This document shows, piece after piece, positions 4,491 through 23,572 of a DNA stretch of 30,607 nt. The position numbers and the translations under genes are program-made. Numbering within the stretch: position 1 is the stretch's first letter; each line of letters starts with the position of its first letter. Under the pieces are notes generated by a model. The model made no database searches, was not told where the DNA came from, and saw nothing but the letters and a program-made list of their open reading frames with translations. The DNA comes from a virus, in IMG/VR virus record IMGVR_UViG_3300049825_000215, positions 1 to 30,607 of that record. One strand, written 5' to 3'.

Positions 4491-5770
4491 TGCGTATGTC
4501 GCCTGTTATACCCTTTGGCGCATGGGAGCCGGACATGCCGCCCCTAGGGGCTAAGACGGCGACGGAAATCATTAATGCCGTCCCGGTCAAGGGCGGATAT
4601 GGGCCGTTCAAGGAACTGGCAATTTCGGGGCCTATCGGGCCGGGCGCGCCGAAATCAGGAATTCGGATTGACGGCAATACATACATCGCGACAGCGGCGG
4701 GGGTTTACTACAACGGGGCGCAGATTGAAGGGGGCGCACCGGGGATTGCATGGGAATTTGAACGGTGGGGCAATTACATTGCCGCCGTTTCAAGCCTTGG
4801 CGTGTTCAGGGGCATTGCGGGCGTTCTGACACATGTTCCCGGCTCTCCGGGGGGGCGGCTTGTTCGCCGCGTCAAGGATTTTCTCGTTATTGGCCGAAGC
4901 GATAATCCGCATTTTCTGCATTGGTCCGCGATTAATGACATGATGGATTTTGCCCCTTCAAAAACCCGGCAAGCTGATCTGAATGATATGGGCGCTCAAT
5001 TCGGCGCGGTCATGGGCATTGCGGGCGAAGAAAGCCCGTTCGTATTGCAAGAGCGTTCAATTTCCCGAATGACATATGCGGGGCCTCCTGTCATTTTCTC
5101 ATTCTTGCGGGTTTCGGATGACCGGGGATGCATCTCGAAGGGGTCGGTTATCAATACTCCTTTCGGGTCCGGTTTTTTCAGCCAAGACGGGCCTAACGTT
5201 ATTTTGGGCGATGAGATAAGACAGATTTCCAAAGGCAGCTTTCAACGCTGGTTTGCTTCGAATTTCAACCCGGCTTGGCCGGTAAGCGCCGGGTATGACT
5301 GGCGTGAGAAAACGATTGTCTGGGCGTGGGATGAAGGAACACGGCGCAGGGGTTTGGCCTATTCGGTCACACAAGACAGGGCGACGTTGATTGAAGATGC
5401 TCCCGCGCTTTTGTTGAATGACGGGAATTTAGCGTTCGGCGTCGACGTGACCGGGCGGGTAGGGACGTTTACAGGTCCGAATGCAAGGGCGACACTGACA
5501 ACGGGCGAAAGCCAAATGGAGCCGCAGAGGCGGGCTTTCGCGGCTGAGATTTGGCCGGTTGTTGATGCTCAAATAAAGTCGGCAAGCGTAGGGGTAAGGG
5601 ACGGGCAGACTGTAACATATTCGCCTGAATATGAGGCTAATTCGGCAGGGATGGTTCCTTGCCGGGTTTCGGCGCATAATCATCGTTTTAAGACAATCAT
5701 CCCGCGCGGGCAGGACTGGCAATTCGCGCAAGGCGTCCAGGTTGGATTCAGGCCGGAAGGAAGGCAATAA
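4490..5770 (+). CDS. Tail nozzle / head-stabilisation protein
   Basis: The protein has 426 residues and is dominated by beta-strand repeats. It opens with PFGAWEPDMPPLGAKTATEI, the start typical of podovirus nozzle or P22 gp10-like stabilisation proteins, which list output values early (INAVPVKGGYGPFKELA). The middle contains VKDFLVIGRSDNP and AAVSSLGVFRGIAG, blade-like strands of a predicted beta propeller. It forms the tail tube extension below the adaptor and keeps the packaged DNA in. TAATG links it to the adaptor gene. I am fairly sure of the class, less so of the exact family. Confidence 0.8.
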   Translation: MRMSPVIPFGAWEPDMPPLGAKTATEIINAVPVKGGYGPFKELAISGPIGPGAPKSGIRIDGNTYIATAAGVYYNGAQIEGGAPGIAWEFERWGNYIAAVSSLGVFRGIAGVLTHVPGSPGGRLVRRVKDFLVIGRSDNPHFLHWSAINDMMDFAPSKTRQADLNDMGAQFGAVMGIAGEESPFVLQERSISRMTYAGPPVIFSFLRVSDDRGCISKGSVINTPFGSGFFSQDGPNVILGDEIRQISKGSFQRWFASNFNPAWPVSAGYDWREKTIVWAWDEGTRRRGLAYSVTQDRATLIEDAPALLLNDGNLAFGVDVTGRVGTFTGPNARATLTTGESQMEPQRRAFAAEIWPVVDAQIKSASVGVRDGQTVTYSPEYEANSAGMVPCRVSAHNHRFKTIIPRGQDWQFAQGVQVGFRPEGRQ

Positions 5771-6135
5771 TGGCAAAAACGCAACTTGGCCCGATTCACA
5801 TTACGGCATGGGATACGCCGACAACGCTTTTCACGGGCGGCGCGAGTGGCACAATTATCGATCAGGTCATCTTGAACAATTCGAGTGACGTTTCGAGCGG
5901 CGCGATCACCACTAAGGTAAACATCTCAATTGTTCCAGCGGCGGGAAGCCCTTCTGCGGCAAATCAGGTTCTTTCCGGCAAGTCGATATTCCGGCAGAAA
6001 AACTATGAATTGAAAGAATTGGAAGGAATGTTTATAGCTACCGGGACAACGTTTGTTGTGACCGCCGTTCCGTCAACAAGCGGCACGGGTGTTGCGCCTA
6101 GCATTGTGGTTTCAGGCTCATATGAGAATTTGTAA
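5770..6135 (+). CDS. Small beta-rich virion protein
   Basis: The protein has 121 residues, with alternating strands (TIIDQVILNNSSDVSSGAIT then KVNISIVP) and a C-terminal GSYENL. The composition (Thr, Ser, Val, Gly rich, no Cys) suits an Ig-like or jelly-roll accessory protein on head or tail. It lies between nozzle and internal virion genes and is coupled by TAATG on both sides. No family is recognised. Confidence 0.7.
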   Translation: MAKTQLGPIHITAWDTPTTLFTGGASGTIIDQVILNNSSDVSSGAITTKVNISIVPAAGSPSAANQVLSGKSIFRQKNYELKELEGMFIATGTTFVVTAVPSTSGTGVAPSIVVSGSYENL

Positions 6136-19558: not shown

Positions 19559-20188
19559 CTAGAATGCGTCTTGTTCCATGATTTCGCCGTCGATGATCTC
19601 GCCTGTGTCGGCGTCGTGCGCGGGATTGGCTGCCTCCCATGCGTCGTAAGCCGCTTGCATCTTGGCAAGCCTGTCAGCCGGAACCGCAGCCCGCCGCTCT
19701 GCCGTATCTCGCCAGAACTCGCGCGGGCCAGTATCTGATTTCAACGCCGCCCCGAACTCCTTTGCATAGGCGTCAACGGGATTGACCGTCTTTTCCGCAA
19801 GCGGCTGCACAGTGAACGGCGCGCGCTTGGATTTGCTGGCCGTGAGCGCCATGGTTTTGGGCGCATTCAAGCCGCTCATGTGGCTGATGCGAATGCCTCC
19901 AACCTCCATGCCACCGAATATCACCTTCGGGTCGCGGAACAATGTCATAGATCGCCCGGGGTAAGAATTTCCGTCCGGCCCCCAAATGTCAACGAAAACC
20001 CGGCGCATGGATTTGCAGGGCTTGTATGGCTTGCCGCCGTCACCCTCGAAAAAGACGCAAATGGGCTGCGCTGGATTGGACGGGTCGGCGGAAACCTTGG
20101 TTATTTTCACGGTCATTGGACCGGCGATAAGATCATCCGAATTGAGCTGGTCGGACTTGGGTGCGATGGTTTTTGAAACGTCGGTCAC
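19559..20188 (-). CDS. Probable DNA-binding partner of the exonuclease
   Basis: The protein has 209 residues. The first 120 residues are beta-rich (TVKITKVSADPSNPAQPICV, then RRVFVDIWGPDGNSYPGRSM and GGMEVGGIRISHMSG), which could be an OB-like fold. The C-terminal part is helical and ends in an acidic tail (DADTGEIIDGEI), as in many single-strand DNA-binding proteins. It starts with GTG that overlaps the exonuclease stop (GTGA), and AGGAG lies 14 bases upstream. Phage exonucleases are usually encoded next to an annealing or ssDNA-binding protein, so this is the best candidate. Family not recognised. Confidence 0.6.
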   Translation of the reverse strand: MTDVSKTIAPKSDQLNSDDLIAGPMTVKITKVSADPSNPAQPICVFFEGDGGKPYKPCKSMRRVFVDIWGPDGNSYPGRSMTLFRDPKVIFGGMEVGGIRISHMSGLNAPKTMALTASKSKRAPFTVQPLAEKTVNPVDAYAKEFGAALKSDTGPREFWRDTAERRAAVPADRLAKMQAAYDAWEAANPAHDADTGEIIDGEIMEQDAF

Positions 20189-20859
20189 GATGCGATAATC
20201 TCCTGTTGAACTTTTCGCTCGGTCGCATAAAGATGCTCGGACGCAAGAATGTAAGCCTCCATATTGTCTTGGAGCCGCGCCTCAAATGCGACTGCCGCGT
20301 TGATGATTGCCATTTGAATTGCCTCATCGGGAAAAACCCGGCAAACAAACATCGGCATACCGCCGCAATAGGAAATGAAGTCGCACCATTTGCGTTCGGA
20401 AATCAGCAATCCAGACTGAACTTGCAGCATGTATTCTGACGGACATTTGCCCTCTATGATCGTCTGCGCCTGATATTTCTGGCGGCGCGATTTGGCTTCG
20501 ATTAAACCGTCATCGCCAACAAGGCCGTCCGGCGAACAACCGATAGGAAATCCAAGCTTGTCGTTGGTGATGAATCCGCATTCGGTGACCGGCTCGTATT
20601 TCTCCGAATACAGGAGCCGCGCGTCAAATTCCTCATCTTTGCCGCGCAGCATGTCATCGCCGATATAATGGGGTTCCACATAGTTGGTGACACGCTGAGC
20701 AAGAAGCTCGTAAAGATGCTGTCTCTCTTTGTCGTTCGCCGCCATTTTGAGCGTCGGCGTGAGTATCAGGCTCATGTTGCTGGCGGTCAGCATTCCGCAG
20801 CGGATTTCGTGCCACTCGTCTGAGCCTTGAACCATGTTGGTGTGGTGGGTTACGGTCAT
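20185..20859 (-). CDS. YqaJ/lambda-type exonuclease
   Basis: The protein has 224 residues. Family blocks in order are GSDEWHEIRCGMLTAS (12-27), then the PD-(D/E)xK core GFPIGCSPDGLVGDDGLIEAKS with Asp111, Glu121 and Lys123, and YMLQVQSGLLI with Gln146/Gln148. These enzymes resect double-stranded DNA ends 5'-3' for annealing-type recombination. ATG 20859 overlaps the previous stop (ATGA) and has GGGGAG upstream, so I prefer it to the ATG at 20874. Clustered with a putative ssDNA-binding protein and a Spo11-like gene. Confidence 0.88.
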   Translation of the reverse strand: MTVTHHTNMVQGSDEWHEIRCGMLTASNMSLILTPTLKMAANDKERQHLYELLAQRVTNYVEPHYIGDDMLRGKDEEFDARLLYSEKYEPVTECGFITNDKLGFPIGCSPDGLVGDDGLIEAKSRRQKYQAQTIIEGKCPSEYMLQVQSGLLISERKWCDFISYCGGMPMFVCRVFPDEAIQMAIINAAVAFEARLQDNMEAYILASEHLYATERKVQQEIIAS

Positions 20860-21098
20860 TCTCGTTCTCCCCATTTGACAACGTAAGCTTGGCGAATTGG
20901 AACGCCGGAAATTTCGACGTTGTGAAGTCCGCCAACTTCCAAATATTTGGTGTCGTAGCCGTCACGGTGTAGCTGATCCGCCAGCTTCTGCACTTCGTTT
21001 GGAGCAACATTGAAGCAGGTCAAATGAAGTCCAGCGTTTTGCAGCGCGTTTGAAAGCTCGCGCACCGCGTCAATGATGCGGCTGGATGGGGTTGTCAT
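20856..21098 (-). CDS. Small protein, function unknown
   Basis: The protein has 80 residues: helix (SRIIDAVRELSNALQNAGLH), helix (PNEVQKLADQLHRDGYDTKY) and strands (YLEVGGLHNVEISGVPIR). The start is coupled to the repeat-protein stop as TGATG, and the stop overlaps the exonuclease start. A longer frame extends upstream into the repeats but is an artefact of their composition. No family recognised. Confidence 0.7.
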   Translation of the reverse strand: MTTPSSRIIDAVRELSNALQNAGLHLTCFNVAPNEVQKLADQLHRDGYDTKYLEVGGLHNVEISGVPIRQAYVVKWGERE

Positions 21099-21637
21099 CA
21101 CGCCCTTCGCAAAGCTGTTATCCGCGTGTCCGCCCGGAAGTTGGTGCACGCGGGCAGTTCGGGCAGGGCGGTCACGCCGGGGAGATTGTCCACCCGGAAG
21201 TAGGTGCACGCGGGCAGCGCGGGCAGGGCGGTCACGCCGGGGAGATTGTACGCCCGGAAGTCGGTGCACGCGGGCAGTTCGGGCAGGGCGGTCACGCCGG
21301 GGAGATTGTACGCCCGGAAGTCGGTGCACGCGGGCAGTTCGGGCAGGGCGGTCACGCCGGGGAGATTGTCCGTCCAGAATTTGGTGCACGCGGGCAGCGC
21401 GGGCAGGGCGGTCATGCCGGGGAGATTATCCGTCCAGAAGTTGGTGCACGCGGGCAGTTCGGGCAGGGCTGTCACGCCGGGGAGATTATCCGTCCAGAAG
21501 TCGGTGCACGCGGGCAGCGCGGGCAGGGCGGTCACGCCGGGGAGATTAATCGCCCAGAAGTTGGTGACTTTCGAAAAATCAAAATTCTTGGCGACTAGGC
21601 TATCGAGATGTGATTTTGATGTGATTGTCAGTTTCAT
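21098..21637 (-). CDS. Leucine-rich-repeat-like protein from 60-bp tandem repeats
   Basis: The protein has 179 residues. After a short N terminus (KLTITSKSHLDSLVAKNFDF) it consists of about seven 20-residue units of the form LPGVTALP[EA]LPACT[ND]F, with Glu and Ala alternating for most of the array. The LPxLPxxxxF rhythm and 20-residue period recall the short bacterial LRRs of YopM/IpaH type, so a curved binding surface is possible. Each unit has one Cys. ATG 21637 has AAGGA upstream; an earlier in-frame ATG at 21688 lies within the promoter region. It is the first gene of the leftward recombination operon. The role is unknown; the LRR call is by eye. Confidence 0.7.
   Translation of the reverse strand: MKLTITSKSHLDSLVAKNFDFSKVTNFWAINLPGVTALPALPACTDFWTDNLPGVTALPELPACTNFWTDNLPGMTALPALPACTKFWTDNLPGVTALPELPACTDFRAYNLPGVTALPELPACTDFRAYNLPGVTALPALPACTYFRVDNLPGVTALPELPACTNFRADTRITALRRA
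21128..21566 (-). repeat. Tandem 60-bp repeats, about 7.3 copies
   Basis: Units repeat exactly every 60 bases and differ at only a few positions. Two neighbouring units at 21241-21360 are identical. Differences cluster in two sites, giving CAGTTC/CAGCGC alternation (Glu versus Ala). The length is a multiple of three, so copy-number change keeps the frame of the 21098-21637 gene. Confidence 0.95.
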
Positions 21638-21654
21638 GGCAGGTTTCCTTTTAA

Positions 21655-21706
21655 GTTGACAGGCATGTATCCGTCCCATTAATGACATTGGATACTAATT
21701 GTCAAC
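21655..21706. promoter_or_regulatory. Interlocked opposed promoters and operator
   Basis: Plus strand: TTGACA 21656-21661 and TTAATG 21679-21684. Minus strand: TTGACA 21705-21700 and TTAATG 21682-21677. Both have 17-base spacers, and the two -10 boxes share the palindrome CATTAATG (21677-21684). GTTGACA/TGTCAAC is exactly symmetric about 21680.5. A second inverted pair GTATCC (21667-21672) and GGATAC (21690-21695) is offset by half a base and could be the operator arms. The plus promoter serves the HTH gene and the minus promoter the recombination operon; RNA polymerase could occupy only one at a time. Confidence 0.75.
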
Positions 21707-21716
21707 GGGAAAAATC

Positions 21717-22001
21717 ATGCGAACCACGAACGCCGGAAAACTGTTTGCCCTGTTCGGCAGCGCTGCCGCACTCGCGCGTGAAATCGGCGTGACGCGCGCG
21801 ACTGTCTCCCGTTGGGACTGGCCGTCTGACAATCCGCGCGGTCATGGCGGGATTGTTCCAACTGAATATTACCAGCGCATCCGTGACGCGGCTGAGCGTT
21901 TGGGTCCGGTGCGCGGTGAGCCTTGGATTGCCGCCGTGCTGCAATGTCTGCCGCTGGCTCGGTGTCCGGCGTGTGGCGAAGTGATTGAGGGCCTGAAATG
22001 A
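21717..22001 (+). CDS. HTH regulator, Cro/YdaS-like
   Basis: The protein has 94 residues. The helix-turn-helix is at about 7-28 (KLFALFGSAAALAREIGVTR, then ATVSRW), the form usual in Cro/YdaS-like phage regulators. A C-terminal CPACGE suggests half of a zinc site. ATG 21717 is chosen because an in-frame TTG at 21699 lies inside the promoter. It is divergent from the recombination operon and next to a symmetric operator, so it probably represses one or both promoters. It is also the first gene of a helicase/nuclease operon. Confidence 0.8.
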   Translation: MRTTNAGKLFALFGSAAALAREIGVTRATVSRWDWPSDNPRGHGGIVPTEYYQRIRDAAERLGPVRGEPWIAAVLQCLPLARCPACGEVIEGLK

Positions 22002-22123
22002 CCAAACTCAAACCCGGCGAATATTCCTGCGGCTGCGGGCATGTGTTCAAGCCGGTCAAGTTTCCGCATACGCGCAAGTGCGGCTGCGGCGTGGTGATAA
22101 CTGTCGTCAAGCCCGGTGTGTAA
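21998..22123 (+). CDS. 41-residue CxC zinc-ribbon-like protein
   Basis: The protein is only 41 residues long, with two CGCG motifs (YSCGCGHVF and RKCGCGVV), giving four Cys in two CxC pairs, a likely zinc knuckle. It overlaps the regulator by ATGA, and the helicase ATG follows its stop with no gap, which supports translation. Function unknown. Confidence 0.65.
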   Translation: MTKLKPGEYSCGCGHVFKPVKFPHTRKCGCGVVITVVKPGV

Positions 22124-23572
22124 ATGGAACTGCGCGATTACCAAATGCGCGTCGTGGAGGAAACGCGCCAGCGGCTGCGGAAACGCAAGCGTGTTTTAAT
22201 CCAGCTGCCGACTGGCGGCGGCAAGACGGCAATCGCGGCGCATATCACAAAGTCCGCCGTTGCTCGCGGTTACTCCACAATGTTTCTTTGCCACCGGGAT
22301 TTTCTGGTTGACCAGACAAGTAAGACGTTCGCGCCTTCCGGGATAGACCATTCATTCGTCGCTGCGGGGCGCTGGTATAACCAATGGGCAAACTCGCATA
22401 TCGGCATGGTCCAGACTGTGCGAGGCCGTCTTGCCAAGCTGGCAACGCCGCGACTAGTCGTTTGGGATGAGGCGCACCACATAGGCGCTGCGACTTGGGC
22501 GGCTATCATGGCGGCTTGGCCTGACGCAATCCACATAGGGCTGTCCGCAACGCCCGTGCGGCTGGACGGCAAAGGGCTGGACAAGCATTTCGATGATCTT
22601 GTCATCGGGCCGTCCGTCAAGATGCTTATTGAGCGCGGCCATTTGTCAGACTATCGCGCCTATGCGCCGTCAACACCTGACTTGACCGGCCTCGCCACCC
22701 GCATGGGCGATTACAAGGCGGACGAAATTGAGGCCGTCATGGACAAGTCTGTCCTGATTGGCGATATGGTCCAGCACTACCGGCAGCACGCGGCGGGCAA
22801 GCTTGGTGTCTATTTCTGCACGTCAATCAAACATTCGCAACACGTCGCCGCCGCGTTCCGTGAGGCCGGAATTTCAGCGCAGCACTTGGACGGCACAAGC
22901 ACCACGTTTGAGCGCGGACAAGCGGCGCAAGCATTCGCAAATCGAGATATAATGATATTGACAAACGTTGATCTGTTTGGCGAAGGCTATGACTTGGCCG
23001 CGCAAGCGCAGCGTGATGTCACAATTGAAATGGTTGGTCTTGGCCGTCCAACTCAATCGCTCGGCATGTTCATGCAGCAAGTCGGGCGGGCGCTTCGGCC
23101 TGAGCCGGGAAAGATGGCAATCATTCTCGATCATGCGGGCAACATATCGCGGCATGGACTGCCCGATGATGACCGCGACTGGAAGCTGACCGGCCTGAAA
23201 AAGAAACCGGCAAGCGATGCGTCAACGGTGCGCCAGTGTGAATACTGCTTTTCCTCGATCTCAAAATTCGAGCGCAAGTGCCGTTATTGCGGCGGCGTCA
23301 AGGAAGCGGCGGCGGGTGCTGGCGGGCGGGAAGTGGAGCAAAAGGATGGCGAGCTGCAAGAGATTGACAAGGACGCAATCCGCAAATCTCGCAAGCTCGA
23401 AGAATGGCAGTGTTCCTCGTTGCAGGAACTAATCGATCTTGGAGAGCGGCGCGGCTACAAGGATGCTGTGAAGTGGGCCGGGTTTATGTTTACTGCGCGC
23501 GCTGAACGGAAAAACAAAAAGGCTTACGCTGAGCAACAGGCGTTGAATTTTTATGAGACGATGATGAGGTAA
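22124..23572 (+). CDS. SF2 DNA helicase, RadD/DEAH-like, with zinc finger
   Basis: The protein has 482 residues. Motifs: Q-like start (LRDYQ), Walker A PTGGGKT (29-35), DEAH (115-118), SAT (141-143), then the second RecA domain with LTNVDLFGEGYDL and MFMQQVGRALRPEPGK (motif VI). A four-Cys finger (CEYC and CRYC) follows the helicase core, and the C-terminal part is helical. This set fits ATP-dependent branch or duplex remodelling helicases of phages. It is followed by two nuclease genes in one operon. Confidence 0.88.
   Translation: MELRDYQMRVVEETRQRLRKRKRVLIQLPTGGGKTAIAAHITKSAVARGYSTMFLCHRDFLVDQTSKTFAPSGIDHSFVAAGRWYNQWANSHIGMVQTVRGRLAKLATPRLVVWDEAHHIGAATWAAIMAAWPDAIHIGLSATPVRLDGKGLDKHFDDLVIGPSVKMLIERGHLSDYRAYAPSTPDLTGLATRMGDYKADEIEAVMDKSVLIGDMVQHYRQHAAGKLGVYFCTSIKHSQHVAAAFREAGISAQHLDGTSTTFERGQAAQAFANRDIMILTNVDLFGEGYDLAAQAQRDVTIEMVGLGRPTQSLGMFMQQVGRALRPEPGKMAIILDHAGNISRHGLPDDDRDWKLTGLKKKPASDASTVRQCEYCFSSISKFERKCRYCGGVKEAAAGAGGREVEQKDGELQEIDKDAIRKSRKLEEWQCSSLQELIDLGERRGYKDAVKWAGFMFTARAERKNKKAYAEQQALNFYETMMR

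Follow-up and report, generated by a model that had tools for sequence, protein, structure and literature searches.

Opposed, overlapping predicted promoters in the divergent control region of a tailed phage: probably a shared bidirectional site, not a proven switch

Can two opposed promoters that overlap on the same DNA commit a phage to one of two operons without any repressor? This question is raised by a 79-bp gap (21638-21716), which separates a leftward from a rightward gene block in the IMG/VR virus contig analysed here (30,607 bases, hereafter the window; the record is probably partial and may be a fragment). The original prediction described two opposed promoters, each with TTGACA and TTAATG boxes 17 bp apart, whose -10 boxes share a central palindrome, as well as a GTATCC/GGATAC pair as possible operator arms, and proposed that this arrangement acts as a phage switch. 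The symmetry of the -35 pair is exact, as claimed: GTTGACA (21655-21661) and TGTCAAC (21700-21706) are mirror images about 21680.5, and the octamer CATTAATG (21677-21684) is centred on the same axis. Each strand of the record contains a single TTGACA-N17-TTAATG, at 21656-21684 (+) and 21677-21705 (-). GTATCC (21667-21672) and GGATAC (21690-21695) do form an inverted pair, but its centre at 21681 is half a base off the box axis, and the operator role given to it was a guess.

Table 1. Predicted regulatory elements and neighbouring genes of the divergent gap in the window.
Feature	Coordinates	Strand	Evidence
-35 box TTGACA, rightward promoter (HTH-helicase operon), predicted	21656..21661	+	sequence; promoter-score rank
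-35 box TTGACA, leftward promoter (repeat protein / YqaJ exonuclease operon), predicted	21700..21705	-	sequence; promoter-score rank
Palindrome ATTAAT, predicted -10 of both promoters, core of CATTAATG	21678..21683	.	PWM scan; spacer 16 on each strand
Left arm GTTGACAGGCATGTATCC, candidate degenerate operator, weak	21655..21672	+	arrangement resembles L085 GTTGACACGATGTAAAC
Right arm GTTGACAATTAGTATCC (read on - strand), candidate degenerate operator, weak	21690..21706	-	arrangement resembles L085 GTTGACATGCCGTAAAC
YdaS/P22-Cro-like HTH protein, C-terminal CPxCG tail, candidate autoregulator	21717..22001	+	Pfam YdaS_toxin 1.3e-5, P22_Cro 3e-4
41-aa protein with two CxC motifs, gene 2 of rightward operon, between HTH and helicase	21998..22123	+	L074 match
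Superfamily 2 DNA helicase	22124..23572	+	PHROG 16, 2.9e-87; ResIII
20-aa-repeat protein, first leftward gene	21098..21637	-	60-bp tandem repeat
YqaJ-type exonuclease, recombination gene of leftward operon	20185..20874	-	Pfam PF09588, 2.3e-15

The rightward block begins with the genes of an HTH protein, a small CxC protein and a helicase (Table 1), beyond which lie HNH and VRR nucleases. The domain scores of the HTH protein are below the respective cut-offs (YdaS_toxin 25.4 bits, cut-off 30; P22_Cro 20.9, cut-off 30.2; HTH_3 15.7, cut-off 23), and its homologues are found at the equivalent place in five relatives. The CxC protein shares 68% identity over 31 aa with a protein of the relative L074. 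The leftward unit had been called a recombination operon, and it does encode a YqaJ-type exonuclease, but its first gene codes for a repeat protein, with the exonuclease gene behind it. Other leftward genes encode a PHROG 11517 protein and a topoisomerase-like protein of PHROG 6247. The repeats of the first gene, each of 20 aa, are encoded by a 60-bp tandem repeat at 21127-21566 (7.3 copies, 91% matches). In the relatives, the slot of this gene is occupied by an HNH-like gene in L074 and by a gene for a small possible membrane protein in L085, and it is empty in L039 and L082.

Promoters were scored using a weight matrix of E. coli frequencies, which may differ from the consensus of the host. 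The best calls in the gap are two opposed, overlapping sites, which bears out this part of the original prediction, as does the recurrence of the superposed form in two relatives. The best -10 element for both -35 boxes in this matrix is ATTAAT, read from the same six base pairs on both strands. At a spacer of 16 bp it scores 8.9 bits on each strand versus 5.3 bits for TTAATG at a spacer of 17, and these spacer-16 sites rank 9th (+ strand, of 30,581 starts) and 10th (- strand). TTAATG matches TATAAT at two of six positions, without -11A and -7T, whereas ATTAAT matches at four of six, with -7T present and -11A absent. In a strict consensus promoter scan, the two TTAATG-based promoters were not among the listed calls. 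Thus, the opposed promoters and the palindrome shared by their -10 boxes stand, but the predicted common -10 is the ATTAAT core of the octamer at a spacer of 16 bp, and not TTAATG at 17 bp.

From these sites, transcription would start at ~21690 (rightward) and ~21671 (leftward), with leaders of ~27 and 34 nt. The predicted separation of ~19 bp must be odd, because the axis lies between two bases, and it departs from the 18-bp optimum of bidirectional promoters. The reciprocal overlap of -7T and -11A, which is typical of the commonest, 18-bp class of bidirectional promoters without defining it, is also absent from the window, where position -11 is T on both strands, and the common -10 may be weak because it lacks -11A. 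The capsid relatives (55-59% identical, including Rhizobium and Sulfitobacter phages) suggest an alphaproteobacterial host. In an alphaproteobacterial start-site study, the highly conserved -7 thymidine was missing from the -10 consensus (PMC9320726), so the choice of the -10 is uncertain if the host belongs to that group. The Rhizobium and Sulfitobacter phages were set aside: integrase and repressor genes are present in them, but their early regions differ.

TTGAC is frequent across the genome, so either box, or both, might be an unused chance occurrence. The window contains 27 copies of TTGACA versus ~14 expected, a moderate over-representation, and TTGAC and GTTGAC are in excess across the record, perhaps partly due to codon use; single boxes therefore carry little meaning. 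A symmetry of at least 15 of 26 base pairs is reached at 23 of ~30,500 axes in the record. When the left and right halves of the intergenic region were simply aligned with gaps, the p value was only 0.049, so the case is built on the boxes and not on general symmetry. Chance nevertheless appears very improbable as an explanation of the pair, since nowhere else in the record do two opposed TTGACA boxes lie within 75 bp of each other, this sole pair falls in the divergent gap, and all five relatives have opposed boxes in the same place. Gaps simulated to match the dinucleotide composition of this one contained an opposed TTGACA pair with p ~5e-4, and a pair centred on a 6-bp palindrome with p ~4e-5.

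The five relatives (L039/L083, L074/L087, L082, L084 and L085) have an HTH-helicase operon facing a recombination operon, and their helicases are ~51-62% identical; L082 is a contig in a MAG labelled Paraglaciecola. Opposed TTGAC boxes are present in the gap between the HTH and recombination genes in all five, and in each of them the best promoter call on both gap strands uses a TTGAC box. The distance between the outer ends of the boxes is 53 bp in L085 and L087, 27 bp in L083, and 15 bp in L082 and L084, compared with 50 bp in the window; even L083 and L085, a close pair, differ in it. Superposition with overlapping -10 boxes is found at the 53-bp spacing (L085 and L074/L087), with implied starts 17-18 bp apart. 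The comparison with related phages proposed together with the switch thus gives a divided answer: the genes and the opposed boxes are kept, but the spacing is changed in three relatives, and neither CATTAATG nor the palindromic -10 sequence is conserved. Only one opposed TTGACA pair was found in the other sequence of the helicase-bearing contigs (838 kb). The more distant contig L150 has an opposed pair 34 bp apart just upstream of its HTH gene. A scan of the viral collection (IMG/VR) for the full nested pattern including GTATCC/GGATAC revealed no contig with the exact arrangement, and superposed TTGACA boxes were not seen in those named phages whose helicases are related (ep3, MQ-4, Mica and Murka).

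The gaps of four relatives contain a perfect 17-bp dyad, TTGAC-N5-GTCAA, positioned like an operator over the -35 box; where the boxes are 15 bp apart, they themselves make up this dyad. In a leave-one-out PWM analysis, the relatives' dyads rank first or second in their own loci. Three phage genomes contain two perfect dyads each and no match to a reversed-pattern control, and a 5.6-Mb bacterial assembly has seven dyads versus eight control matches, which corresponds to background. L085 has two one-mismatch copies in a mirror-image arrangement. These dyads point to a repressor and would suit an operator recognised by the HTH protein.

The TTGAC boxes could then be primarily repressor half-sites, with promoter resemblance secondary: the HTH or another phage protein would bind both GTTGACA arms and silence the gap, and the promoters would use other or overlapping elements. 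The exact N5 spacing in four relatives would be unexpected from promoters alone, G001 and G004 each have a second dyad in an intergenic region elsewhere, nested arms are repeated on a single axis in L085, and a related motif in L040 is found ~23 bp upstream of the start codon of the helicase gene, too near to serve as its -35. We regard this explanation as possible but rather doubtful. The best match to the family dyad in the window gap is 7 of 10 positions, no better than chance (shuffle p 0.31), and in every relative the top promoter call on each strand of the gap also uses TTGAC. In L084 (TTGACG-N17-TAATAT) the -35 box lies inside the dyad, so operator and promoter site coincide. Against the PWM of the relatives' dyads, the best sites in the window gap rank 32 and 34 of 30,591; rank 34 belongs to the right arm, GTTGACAATTAGTATCC, which is placed between the predicted start site and the start codon, whereas the left arm, GTTGACAGGCATGTATCC, does not register as a family dyad. 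GTATCC and GGATAC are positioned like GTAAAC and GTTTAC in L085, and these arms may represent a diverged second half-site.

The reading that we favour, with somewhat better than even confidence, is that the gap controls the divergent early genes of an uncharacterised tailed phage and is built around a single sigma-70-type promoter that works in both directions. The consensus -35 boxes, one on each strand, would flank a palindromic ATTAAT used as the -10 in both orientations, and RNA polymerase would sit on the common site in one orientation at a time. Because it would fit only one way, the two operons would compete for initiation, and the two promoters are likely mutually exclusive. The HTH protein encoded by the first rightward gene would be the likely regulator, probably acting at the TTGAC boxes, as suggested by the 17-bp dyads of the relatives, and damping both directions; autoregulation by this adjacent YdaS/Cro-like protein is probable. 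What the sequences establish is the geometry, how improbable it is, and that opposed TTGAC boxes are kept in five relatives; from these we infer promoter activity, the start sites, steric exclusion and binding of the HTH protein.

Previously, bidirectional promoters with a common -10 and starts 7-25 bp apart on opposite strands have been described as widespread by Warman, Grainger and co-workers (PMC10268837, PMC12825309; the findings of Warman et al. 2021 are taken here as given by Middlemiss et al. 2023, PMC10268837, and by PMC12825309). The window resembles them in its near-symmetric common -10, in predicted starts within the 7-25 bp range and in a polymerase that would bind one way only. 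In contrast to the typical sites, its predicted separation is 19 and not 18 bp, -11A is missing from either strand, and the site lies in a phage control region. Its two full-consensus -35 boxes should also place it in the competition regime. Basal activity was too low for competition at the five E. coli bidirectional promoters tested by Warman et al. (2026), and competition appeared there only with an activator or after one -35 box had been brought closer to consensus (PMC12825309).

In a true genetic switch of the kind proposed, exclusion between polymerases would be enough by itself to commit the phage to either operon. Superposed promoters with two consensus -35 boxes would suit such a mechanism, as would the competition seen in E. 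coli when one -35 is raised toward consensus, but we consider it improbable. At basal activity, little competition is seen between the two sides of natural bidirectional promoters (PMC12825309), exclusion that lacks feedback and cooperativity provides no memory, and both operons carry replication or recombination functions, which are expected to be needed together. Searches for tyrosine and serine integrases and S24 repressors (PF00589, PF00239 and PF00717) found none in G000 or in the relatives' phage records, several of which may be partial, as the window record probably is; a lysis/lysogeny meaning is therefore unsupported. The proposal that the choice is built into the DNA even without a repressor is accordingly not supported, since exclusion alone does not make a switch, and neither is the phage switch: no feedback element is seen in the window, no integrase or S24 repressor was found in the phage records of the family, and the spacing is not conserved. 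We infer that mutual exclusion follows from the geometry, whereas a decision-making switch is unsupported. Because the relatives keep the opposed boxes at other spacings, the gap is probably a two-way shared on-ramp under a small phage regulator rather than a proven switch.

In the lambda-type cI/cro control region, divergent early genes are read from back-to-back promoters. The window shares with it the divergent early genes and a Cro-like HTH protein encoded first in one operon, and the relatives have 17-bp dyads over their promoters. Unlike in lambda, the window promoters are superposed, no CI-type repressor or integrase was found, and the divergent gene encodes a repeat protein or an exonuclease. 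Paracoccus phage vB_PmaP_KLEP18-1 (OM654376.2) has a regulator-helicase operon facing an operon of a RecE-type exonuclease and RecT, and on either strand of its gap the top promoter call uses a TTGAC box. However, its boxes point apart, as in ordinary back-to-back divergent promoters, and its regulator has no CxxC tail. The overlapping divergent promoters Pr and Pc are part of a real switch on pLS20, with a regulator, RcoLS20, that both activates and represses, and with DNA looping (PMC4207663). The likeness lies in divergent promoters that overlap on a mobile element, the regulator being made from one of them, and in an operator over the promoters (PMC4207663). What sets pLS20 apart is that its two promoters differ in strength, that its regulator is a tetramer, and that looping and a second operator take part.

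With both -35 boxes at consensus, and competition seen only at strong promoters (PMC12825309), the window is a good test case. It offers a natural phage example, and the relatives at other spacings provide a ready-made series, which could test whether steric exclusion between polymerases serves regulation. It is conceivable, although we would not expect it, that TTGAC in this phage group doubles as -35 box and operator half-site, with spacings of 15, 27 and 50-53 bp producing differing promoter overlap and with exclusion itself being regulatory in the superposed form. If so, related phages would run the same operon pair with differing degrees of promoter overlap, and in the superposed form with two consensus -35 boxes, polymerase exclusion would be strong enough to act as a regulatory mechanism of its own.

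Several repeats were observed outside these gaps. Perfect dyads in L114 and L141 were discarded because they lie within exonuclease coding sequence. The second perfect dyads of G001 and G004 (L245 846-862, G001:39346; L084 12856-12872, G004:21394) are both intergenic and are located ~40-60 bp upstream of a gene of unknown function; they would fit a two-promoter regulon. In L150, a long imperfect inverted repeat, TTGACACGCCCTA...TAGGGTGTCAA (5757-5790), abuts the start codon of the small HTH gene. L040 (538-554, 1040-1056 and 2741-2757) and L043 (3005-3021 and 4283-4299) contain 17-bp motifs of the form GTTGAC-N5-GCAAAC or GTTGAC-N5-GTTTAC, which precede several genes, including the L040 helicase.
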